Shown: one piece after another, positions 18,337 to 27,503 of the stretch
Numbering within the stretch: position 1 is the first letter of the stretch
Layout of the letters: each line of letters begins with the position of its first letter
IMG/VR virus record: IMGVR_UViG_3300005827_000104
Coordinates: 1 to 28,173 of that record
Direction: 5' to 3' (one strand)
From: a virus
Length of the DNA stretch: 28,173 nucleotides
The notes under the pieces: model-generated
The model's database searches: none
Seen by the model: the letters and a program-made list of their open reading frames with translations, nothing else
Told to the model about the DNA's origin: nothing
Program-made: the position numbers and the translations under genes

Positions 18337-19941
18337 TTAGTCCCAGCGGTCGAGCCGGTAAATGACTTGTTGTCCCTGGCTGGTAACTCGAAAATCTTCC
18401 TGCCAGTTCTTGCCGGATTGCAGGGCAATCCCGTTGGCACTTGCCTGTTCGCTGCCTTCCAAGAGCTTGCTTTGGGAGTAGGCTTCGATGCTGGCCCGGA
18501 TGCCGTGAAACTCGGATTTCAGGATTTCCGGGAAAATGCAGAGATGGGCTTTGCTGCTATCTTTTGCACCGTCCAGGATGAAAATAACGCGCTTGCCCTG
18601 ATTGGAAAAGCTCAAATTATTCCACATGGCAGGGTGGAAAGCCACGGCATTTACCTTCACCCATCCAGTAGACAGGCCCCATGTACTACCCATGGAACCA
18701 CCGCTGTAAACGTACCAGCTAAACGGGTTTCGCATGGCGGGAGAGTCCCACTGGATAATCGGCTCGGCATCCGGGTTCACAGCGGTCAGGATGGCGCAGT
18801 AGTTTGCAGCAATCGGCTTGACCATGTATTCAATATGCTCGGCGGTCGGGAGTACCGTCCTGTTGAATTTTTCCCAGGTCATGGTGACGGCTGGCATATT
18901 TACTGGCGCAGCAGGCTTCTTTGTGGCTTTGCGCTTCAGGTGGCCGAACACTTCGCCAGTGCTGCCCTTGGGTTCCGGGCGTGGCTTCCAGATGGCCTGG
19001 ATTTCATCAAGGCGGGCGTACCGGCGAGCCAGCGCGCCACCCACGCCCAACTGCGCGACAAGCTTTTCAGCCTGGGCCAGGTTGCCGGCGCTGGGGGAAG
19101 CCTGCGGGCGCTGGTACTGCGTCGGGTTCATCTTGGCGGCAAATCGGGATTTGATGGCTTCAAAATCCAAACCATCATTGATGTCATCCAGCAGCGTGCC
19201 GATCATGGACGACTTGATGTGCGCGAAGCCGGCGGGGGCAGTGGCAACCGCCAGCCACACGATGTTGGCTTTATGACCAACCGTTTTGGTTTCGCGGTAG
19301 ATCTTCTCCCACCTGGAGAACCACTCGGCCACACCCAGGACTTTTTCACCCCGATAAAGGCTCTCGGATTTCAGGATTGTCAGGGCAACGTCAACTGTGG
19401 AGTTCTTGTACTCGCCAAAGGCGGCTTTGACCATCTTGTAATCTTCGTAGAGTTCGGCCTGGCGCTGGCTGGCGCTTTGGATGCGGGGGTTCCAGACCAT
19501 CCAAAGGCGCGGGCTTACGCTCATGTGTTTCCATTCGCCAGTAACCGGAGTTCCGTACTCGCGTTCGCTGGAAATAAAGACCCCGGTTACCTGTGCCAGG
19601 CGCACTACATCGTACAGGGCCAGGATTGCGGGTTTGAAAAATTCGGGAGTTTCGGGCCACTCCCACATCACTGGGGTCTTTTGGCCTTTGCTGCCAATTT
19701 GCACCAGACCACCGTACTTGTTGACAAAGTTCTTGCAGGCGTTGCAGGTGTAGTGCTGCTGTGCTTCAGCAGGAAGCATGCGCAAGAACAGGTCAAACAG
19801 GTCGTGGGCGTCGGTCGTGAAAAGCGGATTGTGGTTCCATTCAACGGCTTTGTGGAAATTGTCCCGCAGGGATTGCAGGAATTCGTGATAATGGTCACCT
19901 TCCCGGTCGTCCGGGGCGGCAATGTCATTTGCGGTTTGCAT
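18337..19941 (-). CDS. Large phage protein of unknown function with CxxC motif
   Basis: A 534-residue soluble protein preceded by AAAGGA and by its own promoter-like element at 19974. Residues about 60-90 hold HYTCNACKNFVNKYGGLVQI, a Cys-x2-Cys with conserved-looking aromatics. A long helical middle follows, with YRETKTVGHKANIVWLAVAT (residues about 236-255). Residues about 330-355 are a basic, Pro/Lys-rich linker. The C-terminal region has FSWYVYSGGSMGSTWGLSTG and VIFILDGAKDSSK. It resembles a conserved phage protein family without known function. No nuclease, kinase or polymerase motif was recognised. Separate promoter control suggests a significant early role. Confidence 0.75.
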   Translation of the reverse strand: MQTANDIAAPDDREGDHYHEFLQSLRDNFHKAVEWNHNPLFTTDAHDLFDLFLRMLPAEAQQHYTCNACKNFVNKYGGLVQIGSKGQKTPVMWEWPETPEFFKPAILALYDVVRLAQVTGVFISSEREYGTPVTGEWKHMSVSPRLWMVWNPRIQSASQRQAELYEDYKMVKAAFGEYKNSTVDVALTILKSESLYRGEKVLGVAEWFSRWEKIYRETKTVGHKANIVWLAVATAPAGFAHIKSSMIGTLLDDINDGLDFEAIKSRFAAKMNPTQYQRPQASPSAGNLAQAEKLVAQLGVGGALARRYARLDEIQAIWKPRPEPKGSTGEVFGHLKRKATKKPAAPVNMPAVTMTWEKFNRTVLPTAEHIEYMVKPIAANYCAILTAVNPDAEPIIQWDSPAMRNPFSWYVYSGGSMGSTWGLSTGWVKVNAVAFHPAMWNNLSFSNQGKRVIFILDGAKDSSKAHLCIFPEILKSEFHGIRASIEAYSQSKLLEGSEQASANGIALQSGKNWQEDFRVTSQGQQVIYRLDRWD

Positions 19942-19973: not shown

Positions 19974-20008
19974 TTATCCTGTTAACCCTTCACGGGCTGG
20001 ATTGTTAA
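19974..20008 (-). promoter_or_regulatory. Promoter/operator element upstream of the 534-residue gene
   Basis: Read on the - strand: TTAACA (20008-20003), 17 bases, then TTAACAGGATAA (19985-19974), 33 bases before the ATG. The geometry is identical to the elements at 24852 and 26483. The TTAACA overlaps the stop codon of the upstream methyltransferase gene. Confidence 0.6.
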
Positions 20009-20610
20009 GCAGATTTTACAAACTGGATCACACTCTCATACGGAACGCGCTTTTCGGCATTCCTACCAAACTTCATGGATGGTACGGGCAGTTTCTTGTA
20101 CTTGCGCACCTGGTAGCCCATTTCGCAAAGCGTCTCTATGTGCCATTCAGTGACGAGCATCTCTTGGCCCTGGCGGATGTGGTTCTTGATGTTAAGCACA
20201 AAAAGCCCACCGGGAGCCAGCACGCGGCTTACTTCCTGCCAGGCGCGCTGGTGGAATTCCTGATACCCCCGGTTCCAGTGCAACTGGCCCGAATTATCCG
20301 GGTGCATCTTGCGGCCCAGCAGGGCAAAGTACTTGTTCGTCTTGGCCTTGTGGTGGCGGTCTTGCGCGTCGCCTTTGGACTGGTCAGCCATGTGGTTGCC
20401 ATACGTCGGGCTGGTGCAGATCGCGTCAAAATACCCGGTCGGGAAAGGCAGGGCCAGGGCGCTGCCCACGATGGTGCGCGGGTGCTGCTTAGCCCATTCA
20501 GGCTCTATTTCTACCGCTTGTATCTGGGCCTGGGGAAGCCACTGGTTGAGCAGAAACACCTTCCCGGTTCCACCGAATGGGTCGAGAATGCGGCGGGAGC
20601 CGGCAAGCAT
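20005..20610 (-). CDS. DNA methyltransferase (N4/N6 type)
   Basis: From the ATG at 20610 the product is 201 residues. It has the SAM-binding motif ILDPFGGTGK near the N-terminus and the catalytic-type motif TSPTYGNHMAD (about residues 66-76), a variant of the SPPY class. LNIKNHIRQG and PVPSMKFGRNAEKRV follow. It would methylate amino groups of adenine or cytosine, perhaps protecting phage DNA. The frame continues upstream of the ATG to 20697 with family-like sequence (LPDSKPKHPAKYTDVLLSEF) but contains no ATG, GTG or TTG, so the true start is uncertain. No partner restriction gene was seen. Confidence 0.8.
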   Translation of the reverse strand: MLAGSRRILDPFGGTGKVFLLNQWLPQAQIQAVEIEPEWAKQHPRTIVGSALALPFPTGYFDAICTSPTYGNHMADQSKGDAQDRHHKAKTNKYFALLGRKMHPDNSGQLHWNRGYQEFHQRAWQEVSRVLAPGGLFVLNIKNHIRQGQEMLVTEWHIETLCEMGYQVRKYKKLPVPSMKFGRNAEKRVPYESVIQFVKSA

Positions 20611-24085: not shown

Positions 24086-24278
24086 TGCTTTGCTCCTGAT
24101 TGTGGCACTCGAAACAGCGCTGTGTAGCGCCATTGGCGGGGACTGCCTGGGCCTTGTTTAGGGCCACCTGGCAGGCGGTAACGAGCAGGCTCGACCCGGC
24201 TTTGGTAACCAGGTGAGCCTGCTGGCTGGATGGCCCAGCCTTGTACCAGGAAGTGTTGATCTGCTGCTTAGTGGGCAT
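24066..24278 (-). CDS. Small protein with C-terminal CxxC
   Basis: A 70-residue protein. ATG 24278 is preferred; ATG 24290 in the same frame is also possible, and neither has a strong ribosome site. It overlaps the DUF2997-like gene by 11 bases, so it is probably coupled. The sequence begins MPTKQQINTSWYKAGPSSQQ, has a helix with LLVTACQVALNKAQAVPANG, and ends with CFECHNQ, half of a metal site. Function unknown. Confidence 0.55.
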   Translation of the reverse strand: MPTKQQINTSWYKAGPSSQQAHLVTKAGSSLLVTACQVALNKAQAVPANGATQRCFECHNQEQSNANTGN

Positions 24279-24483
24279 GGACGGTACCATCGGCGTGCGT
24301 GTGGGCGGTCAGGTGGTTGTGGGTGTGGGCTTCGATTTTGAAGCCTTCGGGCTGCCCGTTCAGCATCTCGGCGAGTTCGGAGAGTTCCTTCAGGATGCGA
24401 TTCTCGTCCGGGTTGCCAGCGTTGTTGAACTGGATGGAGCCGTCCGGGTTGATCTTGACTTTGATTTTGCGGGGTGCTGGCAT
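24268..24483 (-). CDS. DUF2997-like protein with His-rich tail
   Basis: A 71-residue protein from ATG 24483, six bases after the DUF1257-like stop. The N-terminus RKIKVKINPDGSIQFNNAG matches the opening of DUF2997 proteins (a strand, then I-x-P-D-G, then a strand and a helix). Residues 24-46 are the helix (ENRILKELSELAEML). The tail is unusual: in place of the family's expected Cys-containing segment it carries seven His within its last 20 residues (HTHNHL, HTHADG, HAH), suggesting metal binding. Position beside DUF1257 and Ycf46-like genes supports the call. No family search was possible. Confidence 0.65.
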   Translation of the reverse strand: MPAPRKIKVKINPDGSIQFNNAGNPDENRILKELSELAEMLNGQPEGFKIEAHTHNHLTAHTHADGTVHAH

Positions 24484-24488
24484 GGCTG

Positions 24489-24827
24489 TTAACCTTTCAG
24501 GCTGGTGAGGACGAATTCGCCGGCGTTCTTGTCGGGGCTGAGTAAGTAGCCGTTTTTCTTGCCCCAAACCTTCAACTGCTCTTTGGCGTAGATGGGCAGC
24601 AGGGGCTGGATGATGTCCTGGGGGAAATCCCCGGAGCCGGAGTAAGTGACCGTTGAGAATTTCGCACCGGGTTTCTCGCGCTGGATGTCAACATAGGTGT
24701 AGCGGTCTTTGCGGATGGTGTACCGGTTTTCGTTCACCTTGGTCACCTGGAAACCCAGGGCCTGGGCGGCAGCCAGGATGCTTTTTACTTCGATCAAGTT
24801 GGTTTGGATGGCGCTATAACAGGGCAT
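24489..24827 (-). CDS. Ycf35-like protein (DUF1257)
   Basis: A 112-residue protein. ATG 24827 (MPCYS) is chosen because AAGGAG is seven bases upstream; ATG 24833 is too close. IQTNLIEVKSILAAAQALGF and KVNENRYTIRKDRYTYVDIQ fit the DUF1257/Ycf35 pattern, in which an N-terminal strand, helix, two strands and a C-terminal YAKEQLKVWGKKNGYLL segment are typical. Family members occur in cyanobacteria, plastids and some bacteria; function is unestablished. It has its own promoter-like element at 24852 and precedes the DUF2997-like gene. Confidence 0.75.
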   Translation of the reverse strand: MPCYSAIQTNLIEVKSILAAAQALGFQVTKVNENRYTIRKDRYTYVDIQREKPGAKFSTVTYSGSGDFPQDIIQPLLPIYAKEQLKVWGKKNGYLLSPDKNAGEFVLTSLKG

Positions 24828-24851
24828 TTGCATTCTCCTTTGTGCGTGGTG

Positions 24852-24886
24852 TTACCTACATAACCCTTGAGACCCCGAATTGTTAA
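24852..24886 (-). promoter_or_regulatory. Promoter/operator element upstream of Ycf35-like gene
   Basis: On the - strand: TTAACA (24886-24881), 17 bases, then TTATGTAGGTAA (24863-24852), 25 bases before the ATG. It is nearly identical to the element at 26483, including GGTAACACC after the core. The TTAACA overlaps the base of the hairpin at 24885. Confidence 0.65.
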
Positions 24887-24911
24887 GCCCCCAGGGGTTT
24901 CCTGGGGGCTT
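24885..24911 (-). terminator. Hairpin terminator downstream of Ycf46-like gene
   Basis: An 11-bp perfect GC-rich stem (24885-24895 with 24901-24911) and a five-base loop, 19 bases after the Ycf46-like stop. On the - strand the 3' arm ends CTTAACAA, with only a short T-run, so termination may be partial. The arm overlaps the -35-like TTAACA of the next unit. Confidence 0.65.
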
Positions 24912-24929
24912 TTGATTGGGGTGATTTTT

Positions 24930-26459
24930 TTATAGATCAATCCCGGTATCCATGGTCTTTTCTACCCTGGACTGCGCTTCCAGCGGCTCGCTGGCTGGAA
25001 TGGCGCGATTGCTGGCCCAGCTTCGCAGGTTGTTGATCTGCTCTGCCATTGTGACCGAGACCGGAACAATGCGGCGTGCGGCGTAGTCAAGGTCAGCAAC
25101 CGTCACCGAGCGATTTTGGAAGAAAGCGCGCTCGACTGCGCTCTTGACCACCTTCTCGATCTCAGCCCCGGAAAATCCCCATGTATCCGTGATCACTTCG
25201 CCAAACTCGCTCAGGCCGGTGACGTTGCGCTTGCTGAGATGTACCGCCAGTATTTCCTGGCGGGCGGCAGCGTTGGGCAAGTCTACCCACATGATGTCGT
25301 CAAATCGTCGCAGGAATTCCGGGCGCAGTTTCCGCACATCGTTGGCGGTAGCGATGGTGTAAACCGGGCTTTTGGTTTCCTGCATCCAGGTCAGTAACGT
25401 TCCGAAAACCCGGCTGGTCGTGCCCCCGTCCGACTCCCCGCCATTCATCCCGCCCAGGGCCTTCTCGACCTCATCAATCCAGAGAACGCAGGGTGCGATG
25501 GCCTCGACCGTCTTGAGCGCCAGGCGCATGTTGGCTTCCGACTGTCCAACCAGTCCGCCCATCAATGCGCCAACGTCCATTCGCACTAGGGGCATCTTCC
25601 CGCCGGCAATCGCTTTAGCGCTCAGGCTTTTGCCGGAGCCAGGAACCCCCACCATCAGCAGCCCCTTGGGAGCATCCACGCCGGCAGCGCGGGCTTTGGT
25701 CGTGAATGCCGAGCGCTTGATCTGCGCATACTCTTTCAGGTGTTCCAGGCCGCCAACTTCCTGCATGGTGGTCGAGTTGTCGTAGTATTCCAGCACCCCA
25801 GCCTTGCGGATGATCTGCGCTTTTTCCTTGACGATCATGGGGATAACGCACTCCCCAAGCTCGCGGGTGGCGACCACTGCGGCCTTGATGACGTTCTGCG
25901 CTTCGACTTTGGTCAGTCCGCGCAGGGCCTGGATAACCGCCTCGCGCTTGCCGTTCTCGCCCAGGGTGTTTTGCACCGGCAGGTCGGTCTCGGCCTGGCG
26001 CAGGATGGCGGAAAGCTCGTCAACGTCTGGCAAGGGCCAGTCAATCAGGGCGACTGACTTTTCCAAGTCGGCTGGTACGTCCAGGCTGGGGGAAAGCAGG
26101 ATGACGTTGTGGCGTCTGGTCTCGAAACGGATGGCGATGTCGCGCAGGAAGCGCACAATCCGGGGATCAACTTTCATCAATTGGTGCATGTCCTTCAGCA
26201 CAAAAATCGTGCTTGGGGTATCGCCTTTTTCGTCGTACTTGGCGATGTATTCCAATGCCGCGTCTGGCGTGGCGTATTCGTCGGCAGCGATGCCGGAAAG
26301 GCCAACCAGCCCGGCTGTGCAAGACCATTCAGCGATTGTGCGTTTGCTGCCGGCCACCTGGCTGATGGAGGCGAGTACGCGGGCTTCCTCGTGGCTCACG
26401 ATCCCGATGATCGGGTAGCGTGCGCGGATGTAGCGGTCAAGAAGTTCGTTTGTGTTCAT
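24930..26459 (-). CDS. Ycf46-like AAA+ ATPase
   Basis: A 509-residue ATPase with AGGAG six bases before ATG 26459. Residues 1-225 match the Ycf46 N-terminal region: ELLDRYIRARYPIIGIVSHE, STIFVLKDMHQLM, NVILLSPSLDVPADLEKSV, then KAQIIRKAGVLEYY. The AAA+ core follows: Walker A GVPGSGKS (271-278), Walker B VLWIDE (325-330), sensor-1 region ATAND (370-374), an RRFDD region (384-388) that may hold the arginine finger, and GFSGAEIE (428-435) in the C-terminal lid. Ycf46 proteins are conserved in cyanobacteria and plastids and present in other bacteria; their role is poorly known. A phage copy linked to Ycf35 and DUF2997 relatives is unusual. Confidence 0.9.
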   Translation of the reverse strand: MNTNELLDRYIRARYPIIGIVSHEEARVLASISQVAGSKRTIAEWSCTAGLVGLSGIAADEYATPDAALEYIAKYDEKGDTPSTIFVLKDMHQLMKVDPRIVRFLRDIAIRFETRRHNVILLSPSLDVPADLEKSVALIDWPLPDVDELSAILRQAETDLPVQNTLGENGKREAVIQALRGLTKVEAQNVIKAAVVATRELGECVIPMIVKEKAQIIRKAGVLEYYDNSTTMQEVGGLEHLKEYAQIKRSAFTTKARAAGVDAPKGLLMVGVPGSGKSLSAKAIAGGKMPLVRMDVGALMGGLVGQSEANMRLALKTVEAIAPCVLWIDEVEKALGGMNGGESDGGTTSRVFGTLLTWMQETKSPVYTIATANDVRKLRPEFLRRFDDIMWVDLPNAAARQEILAVHLSKRNVTGLSEFGEVITDTWGFSGAEIEKVVKSAVERAFFQNRSVTVADLDYAARRIVPVSVTMAEQINNLRSWASNRAIPASEPLEAQSRVEKTMDTGIDL

Positions 26460-26482
26460 GGGTTTCTCCTGGTTATCTGGTG

Positions 26483-26517
26483 TTACCTACATAACCCGTC
26501 AGACGCAGAATTGTTAA
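26483..26517 (-). promoter_or_regulatory. Promoter/operator element upstream of Ycf46-like gene
   Basis: On the - strand: TTAACA (26517-26512), 17 bases, TTATGTAGGTAA (26494-26483), then CACC, 24 bases before the ATG. Best conserved with the 24852 element. A terminator for the upstream gene ends four bases before it. Confidence 0.65.
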
Positions 26518-26520
26518 CCC

Positions 26521-26543
26521 AAAAAAGCCCCCAGTTCGGGGGC
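26521..26543 (-). terminator. Intrinsic terminator on the - strand
   Basis: A six-base GC stem (26538-26543 with 26527-26532 on the - strand), a five-base loop, then six T residues (26526-26521). It ends transcription from the gene at 26549, immediately before the next promoter-like element. Confidence 0.75.
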
Positions 26544-27212: not shown

Positions 27213-27503
27213 CTATAACTCGATGGCGGCGAAGGTGGAAAGGGCCTTCTTGACCTTCTCGGTCATCGGCTGGATCGGCTCCAGGTCAATGGCCTGCGGG
27301 CGGCTGGTGCGCCAGTTCCGAACGTGAGTGATGTGCTTGCACTGCGGGCGGCTGGCGTTGCGCGTCCAGCGCGGGCATCCGCAAGACCACTTATCTTCTG
27401 CGGTGCGGGCCACCGTGTAAATGGTGCCTGGGCGGGAGTCGCTCTCGACTCCGTAAATCTCGACATATTTGCCGTATGGGCCGTACTTGATGGGGTTTTT
27501 CAT
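27213..27503 (-). CDS. Small SWIM-type zinc-finger protein
   Basis: A 96-residue protein with AGGAG seven bases before ATG 27503. Residues 39-58 contain WSCGCPRWTRNASRPQCKH, matching the SWIM zinc motif C-x-C-xn-C-x-H, preceded by a beta region (YTVARTAEDK). SWIM domains bind DNA or proteins, and small stand-alone versions occur in phages and archaea. The C-terminus (MTEKVKKALSTFAAI) is an amphipathic helix. It is coupled by ATGA to the gene before it. Confidence 0.7.
   Translation of the reverse strand: MKNPIKYGPYGKYVEIYGVESDSRPGTIYTVARTAEDKWSCGCPRWTRNASRPQCKHITHVRNWRTSRPQAIDLEPIQPMTEKVKKALSTFAAIEL

Follow-up and report, generated by a model that had tools for sequence, protein, structure and literature searches.

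Ycf46, Ycf35 and DUF2997 have been listed for decades as unknowns of cyanobacteria and plastids. For Ycf46 (slr0374 in Synechocystis) a role in CO2 utilisation or the stress response has been reported (Jiang 2015, as cited in PMC7496141), and the Synechocystis DUF2997-ycf35 pair adjoins the ferredoxin gene fed7 (PMC4284462). The ATPase together with DUF1257 (Ycf35) and DUF2997 is already visible in the public annotation of phages; the GenBank record of Rhizobium phage RHph_I4 (MN988552) names 'DUF1257' and 'DUF2997' after the ATPase. Such a locus was analysed here in the virus record IMGVR_UViG_3300005827_000104, the whole of which (28,173 bases; a linear fragment) is called the window. Genes for the head, tail and tape measure of a tailed phage lie on its plus strand; its minus strand carries small accessory genes, among them three open reading frames (ORFs) for an ATPase of 509 amino acids (aa) and for proteins of 114 and 71 aa. 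Together with a DUF3150-like gene at the contig end, they are on balance best read as a phage copy of a widespread protein-remodelling module, in which a Cdc48-like ATPase would work with a DUF1257/DUF2997 adaptor pair and a DUF3150-like partner. New are the extent and composition of the phage group, the DUF3150-like part and a rare subtype, represented by the window, in which the cysteine is switched.

The window ATPase resembles Ycf46 in its homology over the full length of about 500 aa and, as regards Cyanobacteriota, in adjoining a DUF1257 gene. It differs in belonging to a phage lineage with a DUF3150-like partner, and the role in CO2 utilisation reported for Ycf46 cannot be its task. In RHph_I4, SM1, RcTiptonus, HJ05, L338C and Tunturi_3 the ATPase is likewise followed by DUF1257 and DUF2997, in that order; in these phages, however, the cysteine of DUF2997 is kept, DUF1257 is longer and the ATPase is about 31% identical to that of the window. 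RHph_I4 has a gene for about 200 aa between the ATPase and DUF1257. The closest ATPases (50-59% identity) were those of a prophage of Ornatilinea apprima (locus L097) and of the viral contigs L022, L023 and L024, all with DUF1257 and DUF2997 downstream. L097, L022 and L024 also share with the window a DUF3150-like gene upstream, but the pair of all four loci is canonical, with a DUF1257 starting MSK and a cysteine in DUF2997.

The ATPase and its partner proteins

The ATPase matched Pfam AAA (3.1e-25) and, over almost its whole length, the PHROG family phrog_8638 (9.5e-129). Its first AAA domain (about residues 1-220) is degenerate, and no P-loop was present in residues 1-225. The second domain is intact, with all motifs within residues 271-387: Walker A GVPGSGKS (271-278), the pore loop GGLVG (301-305), Walker B WIDE, ending at residue 330, the sensor TAN (371-373) and the arginine fingers RR (384-385). 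The AlphaFold model (predicted local distance difference test, pLDDT, 88; predicted template modelling score 0.80) contained two AAA-like domains and was matched by Foldseek over its full length to Rix7, Cdc48/p97 and Drg1 (best E 2.8e-21, template modelling score <=0.73). Tandem architecture and fold are thus shared with these proteins, although the window ATPase has its P-loop in the second domain only, lacks an N-terminal adaptor domain and is about 18-20% identical. A profile of phage ATPases found Cyanobacteriota ORFs of about 500 aa over 13-524 of its 537 positions at about 1e-170 and better, down to 6e-185, and DUF1257 lay directly downstream of the ATPase in 13 of 20 fetched Cyanobacteriota loci. 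Judged by this architecture, and not by comparison with a named Ycf46 sequence, the window ATPase is a full-length Ycf46-type protein.

Searched singly against Pfam, PHROGs and NCBIfam, neither of the two small proteins gave a significant match. A search for PF06868 (DUF1257) across the entire window was negative, the 71-aa protein gave no Pfam match to DUF2997 (PF11211), and the curated Pfam cut-off was reached in neither case. Profiles of both families were built from neighbours of related ATPases, some of them recognised by Pfam, with the window left out, and were used to search 12,248 ORFs of 177 sequences, the window among them. The 114-aa ORF matched the DUF1257 profile with E=3.7e-4, or 1.0e-3 in the following round. 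The 71-aa ORF, scored in a longer reading of 99 aa, matched the DUF2997 profile with E=3.3e-5, a match that also bears out its homology to the N-terminal hairpin of that family (IKVxIxPDGxI). Exactly these two ORFs, and nothing else in the window, were picked. Their scores of 18.2 bits (DUF1257) and 18.6 bits (DUF2997) compared with best values of 7.3 and 9.1 bits, respectively, among 5,000 shuffles, and the matches listed up to E=1 included no reversed ORF. The DUF1257 relative also showed an end-to-end BLASTP match (1e-7) to the MPC-type DUF1257 of locus L075; its AlphaFold model reached a pLDDT of 84, and a DUF1257 tree failed to place it (few columns, long branch). The conserved cysteine that follows the beta-hairpin of DUF2997 was absent from the window protein. 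By profile comparison, the two small proteins are divergent relatives of DUF1257 and DUF2997, not members by the Pfam cut-off. The ORF of the DUF1257 relative is also open from an ATG at 24833 (24833-24489, 114 aa). Because a Shine-Dalgarno sequence AGGAG (24839-24835) sits 7 nt ahead of the ATG at 24827, a start at the latter, giving a protein of 112 aa (MPCYSAIQ...), is more likely.

A fourth part was found at the contig end, where the last ORF (28172-27732) was the top window ORF in a search with a profile of ATPase neighbours of 300-430 aa (E=1.3e-25, 89.5 bits). One member of this neighbour family (L048:6546-7523) reaches Pfam DUF3150 (PF11348) at 2.7e-21; the window fragment itself had no Pfam match. 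Since this ORF matches the DUF3150-like neighbour of related ATPases, the module of the window probably spans the stretch between 24268 and the contig end, with a few small genes between its parts (Table 1). Between the two phage groups, DUF3150-like proteins could not be aligned.

An earlier, sequence-only reading of the window had named the three minus-strand genes as a Ycf46-type ATPase with two dedicated partners, a DUF1257/Ycf35 relative and a DUF2997-like protein, on a tailed phage. Place and naming were essentially right, as judged by the ORFs, the Pfam and PHROG matches and the window-free profiles. Of the Pfam searches that it proposed, the one for AAA was positive and those for DUF1257 and DUF2997, with each protein taken singly, were negative. 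Its interpretation was right in kind and too narrow, and the DUF3150-like part had been missed. Of the roles that it had suggested, neither host takeover nor defence evasion was specifically favoured by any observation.

Table 1. Positions of the module and its upstream elements in the window
Feature	Position	Strand	Evidence or characteristics
DUF3150-like partner gene, C-terminal 146 aa; interrupted by contig end	27732..28172	-	Neighbour profile
Upstream element (leader/promoter-like) of ATPase gene	26464..26520	-	57-nt direct repeat with GGGTTATGTAGGTAACACCA and ribosome-binding site
Ycf46-type tandem AAA ATPase, 509 aa	24930..26459	-	Pfam AAA, phrog_8638, motifs, AlphaFold, Foldseek
Upstream element, second copy, before DUF1257/DUF2997 pair	24833..24889	-	Direct repeat; CCCCCAGGAAACCCCTGGGGG hairpin ahead
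Divergent DUF1257 (Ycf35) relative, short 'MPC' subtype	24489..24827	-	Window-free hidden Markov model (HMM), BLASTP to L075
Divergent DUF2997 relative, 71 aa, without family cysteine; His-rich tail AHTHNHLTAHTHADGTVHAH	24268..24483	-	Window-free HMM

Distribution of the module and a cysteine-less subtype

Gene neighbourhoods were surveyed in 97 viral loci, the window counted, and in 80 genome loci (L097-L176) carrying the ATPase. DUF1257 was found near the ATPase in 42 of the viral and 62 of the genome loci, DUF2997 in 41 and 59, respectively. Recurrence of the trio in other phages, which the sequence-only reading had named as support, was thus confirmed, RHph_I4 being annotated with all three. 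Its description of the families as known mainly from cyanobacteria, plastids and some other bacteria needed correction; they are not mainly cyanobacterial or plastid, the module being present in Chloroflexota, Firmicutes, Actinobacteria, Melainabacteria, Planctomycetes, Myxococcales and some archaea; the genome loci include one from Hodarchaeota and one from a Methanosphaera metagenome-assembled genome. DUF1257 and DUF2997 were fused into one protein of 210 aa in Brevibacillus panacihumi and Pseudomonas crudilactis (L162:6603-7235 and L174:3820-4452). In 45 other viral loci an alternative pair of proteins of about 270 and 113 aa was observed, the smaller of which mostly starts with MPCDT and ends with HSHDGG..H. 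This pair lies downstream of the ATPase in L002, L005, L007, L012, L061 and about 40 more loci, including Corndog-type mycobacteriophages. A distant ATPase (33% identity) in the Streptococcus satellite phage Javan368 (L017) had no recognisable DUF1257 or DUF2997 genes nearby.

In the ATPase tree the window fell, with 100% support, into a group of five consisting of itself, three viral contigs and the Ornatilinea apprima locus. This group is nested in a larger phage clade, and the clade of the window is mostly viral. The Ornatilinea locus is itself a prophage; it carries terminase, tape-measure and integrase genes as well as the major-head family of the window, phrog_3990. Because the ATPase stands in a phage clade and its closest 'bacterial' relative in a prophage, a recent insertion of the module from a host, the case that would have spoken against the sequence-only reading, is unlikely. 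Judged by the nearest relatives only, the host of the window phage may belong to the Anaerolineae.

Related phage modules were flanked by genes for methyltransferases, a sliding clamp, a DnaQ-type exonuclease, ParB and RecT, and no further recurrent partner was found among their neighbours. Besides the Fer4_12 type described below, a second type of protein that resembles radical S-adenosylmethionine (radical-SAM) enzymes and carries CxxxCxxC was seen in the viral contigs L006, L008, L009, L010, L011 and L096, at a distance of about 0.7-1.9 kb on the downstream side of the ATPase; that of L096, the one tested, was not recognised by Pfam.

The cysteine of DUF2997 was near-invariant, being present in 98 of 104 relatives. 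The six cysteine-less proteins were those of the window, L045, L048, L075, L031 and L033, and their partner was a short DUF1257 starting with MPC in all six cases (five by script, L033 by eye). No MPC-start partner occurred with any of 91 cysteine-bearing DUF2997 proteins; compared with 5/6, this gives p=9e-8 without correction for kinship. His-rich tails were present in four of the six cysteine-less proteins. The short DUF1257 starting MPC[YD]S, the missing cysteine and the His-rich tail are common to the window, L045, L048 and L075, although the ATPases of the latter three belong to another clade and, unlike in the window, the DUF3150 gene of L045 and L048 lies downstream of the ATPase. The viral contigs L031 and L033 carry two DUF1257/DUF2997 pairs flanking the ATPase, one canonical and the other of the MPC subtype.

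The ATPases of the six MPC-subtype loci sit in three separate parts of the tree, which requires three changes, and the poorly resolved DUF1257 tree needs two. Either ATPase lineages would have exchanged the pair as a whole, or the change would have occurred repeatedly. On the simplest reading, put forward as a hypothesis, the pair needs one thiol, which moved from DUF2997 to DUF1257 in the MPC subtype. It is possible rather than probable that the two proteins form a single functional unit whose required thiol or metal site is movable between them, being the DUF2997 cysteine in canonical pairs and the N-terminal Pro-Cys of DUF1257 together with the His-rich tail of DUF2997 in the MPC subtype. 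If so, a Cdc48-like phage motor would have in the pair an adaptor that depends on a metal or a thiol. The single phage protein of about 113 aa that starts with MPC and mostly ends in a His-rich stretch is perhaps both partners in one; a profile-profile comparison of DUF2997 with this MPCDT family was weak (E 0.011, probability 3.8%), and homology of the single-protein form is not claimed.

Proposed function and competing explanations

The ATPase probably forms a hexamer like those of Cdc48 and Rix7, in which the second ring would hydrolyse ATP and pull on or perhaps unfold protein while the first ring would be structural. The proteins related to DUF1257 and DUF2997 would work jointly as an adaptor, which chooses or presents the target and may carry a thiol and/or metal site, and the DUF3150-like protein would be an additional, phage-specific partner. 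Because the module is set among DNA-metabolism genes, a replication or transcription complex of phage or host would be a reasonable guess for the target, and no more. The full-length two-ring structural match and the restriction of the active-site residues to the second domain support this reading, which builds on what the sequences display directly: ATPase motifs and tandem architecture, relatedness of the small proteins, their constant company and occasional fusion, and the cysteine/MPC switch. Several observations weigh against it. A literature search found no published function for DUF1257, DUF2997 or DUF3150; pore loop 1 of the ATPase, GLVG, is not aromatic; Foldseek found nothing at E<=0.001 for the model of the DUF1257 relative in the PDB and among viral models; and a plain adaptor leaves the radical-SAM enzyme that accompanies the bacterial module unexplained.

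This enzyme is central to a different explanation, in which the module would serve as maturase or activase of an enzyme of the redox, iron-sulfur or glycyl-radical kind. A radical-SAM or ferredoxin-dependent partner would then be loaded, repaired or activated by ATPase and pair, and the phage would use them on a host enzyme such as the anaerobic ribonucleotide reductase. A Fer4_12/NrdG-like radical-SAM gene (Pfam 5.5e-32) was found within the 5-kb flanks of the ATPase in 52/80 genome and 14/97 viral loci. Because of this frequent bacterial neighbour and of fed7 in Synechocystis, the link to redox or radical chemistry is the main rival to an adaptor function, and the near-invariant DUF2997 cysteine and the CxxxCxxC protein recurring in six viral loci point in the same direction. 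However, just 2 of 11 loci in the clade of the window have the radical-SAM gene, the large sister clade is mostly without it, and the window, a fragment ending at the module, contains none that was recognised. Its DUF2997 relative has lost the cysteine, and the likeness to NrdG is at the domain level only. We regard a maturase or activase as possible rather than probable. A cassette for phage defence, anti-defence or superinfection exclusion is improbable. The accessory minus-strand position and the variable partners would suit it, as would the resemblance of the AAA domain to the anti-phage ATPase IteA (3.6e-26), but this match covers the AAA core only, as it does for FtsH or Cdc48, and scores 92 bits against a cut-off of 510 for that family (NF042959). 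Moreover, the module is widespread among bacterial genomes and Cyanobacteriota, and specific support for a defence or counter-defence role was not found in searches that covered Pfam, PHROGs and NCBIfam but not the defence library PADLOC. That the small ORFs are unrelated phage genes resembling DUF1257 and DUF2997 by chance is very improbable. Their silence in the family databases would fit such an origin, as would a tblastn search of phage records, in which the 114-aa protein had no match, and pattern scans of IMG/VR, which gave no confirmed relatives of either protein. Against this, both are the top window matches to independent profiles, far above the shuffles and in the right order and place, and the DUF1257 relative aligns end to end with its counterpart in L075, with which the window shares the MPC start and the His-rich tail.

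By this comparison, Ycf46, Ycf35 and DUF2997 are parts of a single module, an ATPase with a putative adaptor, that is spread across bacteria and very many phages. In bacteria it is usually accompanied by a radical-SAM gene, and in much of the phage group by DUF3150-like partners. Phages offer small, deletable systems for finding its target, and the cysteine switch indicates specific residues to mutate first.

The repeated upstream element and neighbouring genes

The sequence-only reading had placed separate promoter-like elements before the ATPase and the pair. They were found to be real as copies of a 57-nt direct repeat, 81% identical to each other, and were omitted as promoters by a sigma-70 scan of the window, which gave 5 sites compared with 4.4 expected. 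The 18-nt core GGTTATGTAGGTAACACC has two exact occurrences (chance 0.01). By sequence, a GC-rich, terminator-like hairpin precedes both copies; a hairpin scan listed only that of the ATPase (26527-26543). Because the same element, just after a hairpin, precedes the ATPase gene and the pair, the two look like separate transcription units, each with the same putative leader. A third, partial copy (75%) was observed at 19983-20010 on the minus strand, ahead of a gene for 534 aa without functional assignment (18337-19941) that matches phrog_1735 at 5.8e-107.

The first 25 kb of the window had no megablast match among phage records. On the minus strand, 20005-20610 encodes a small protein resembling methyltransferases (Methyltransf_11, 7.6e-7; DNA methylase, a weak match at 1e-5) and 27213-27503 a SWIM-like zinc-finger protein (Pfam 0.0042, below the cut-off). 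Proteins with CxCxxW...CKH that resemble the latter are encoded directly upstream of the ATPase of L022 (3894-4202 and 4210-4851).

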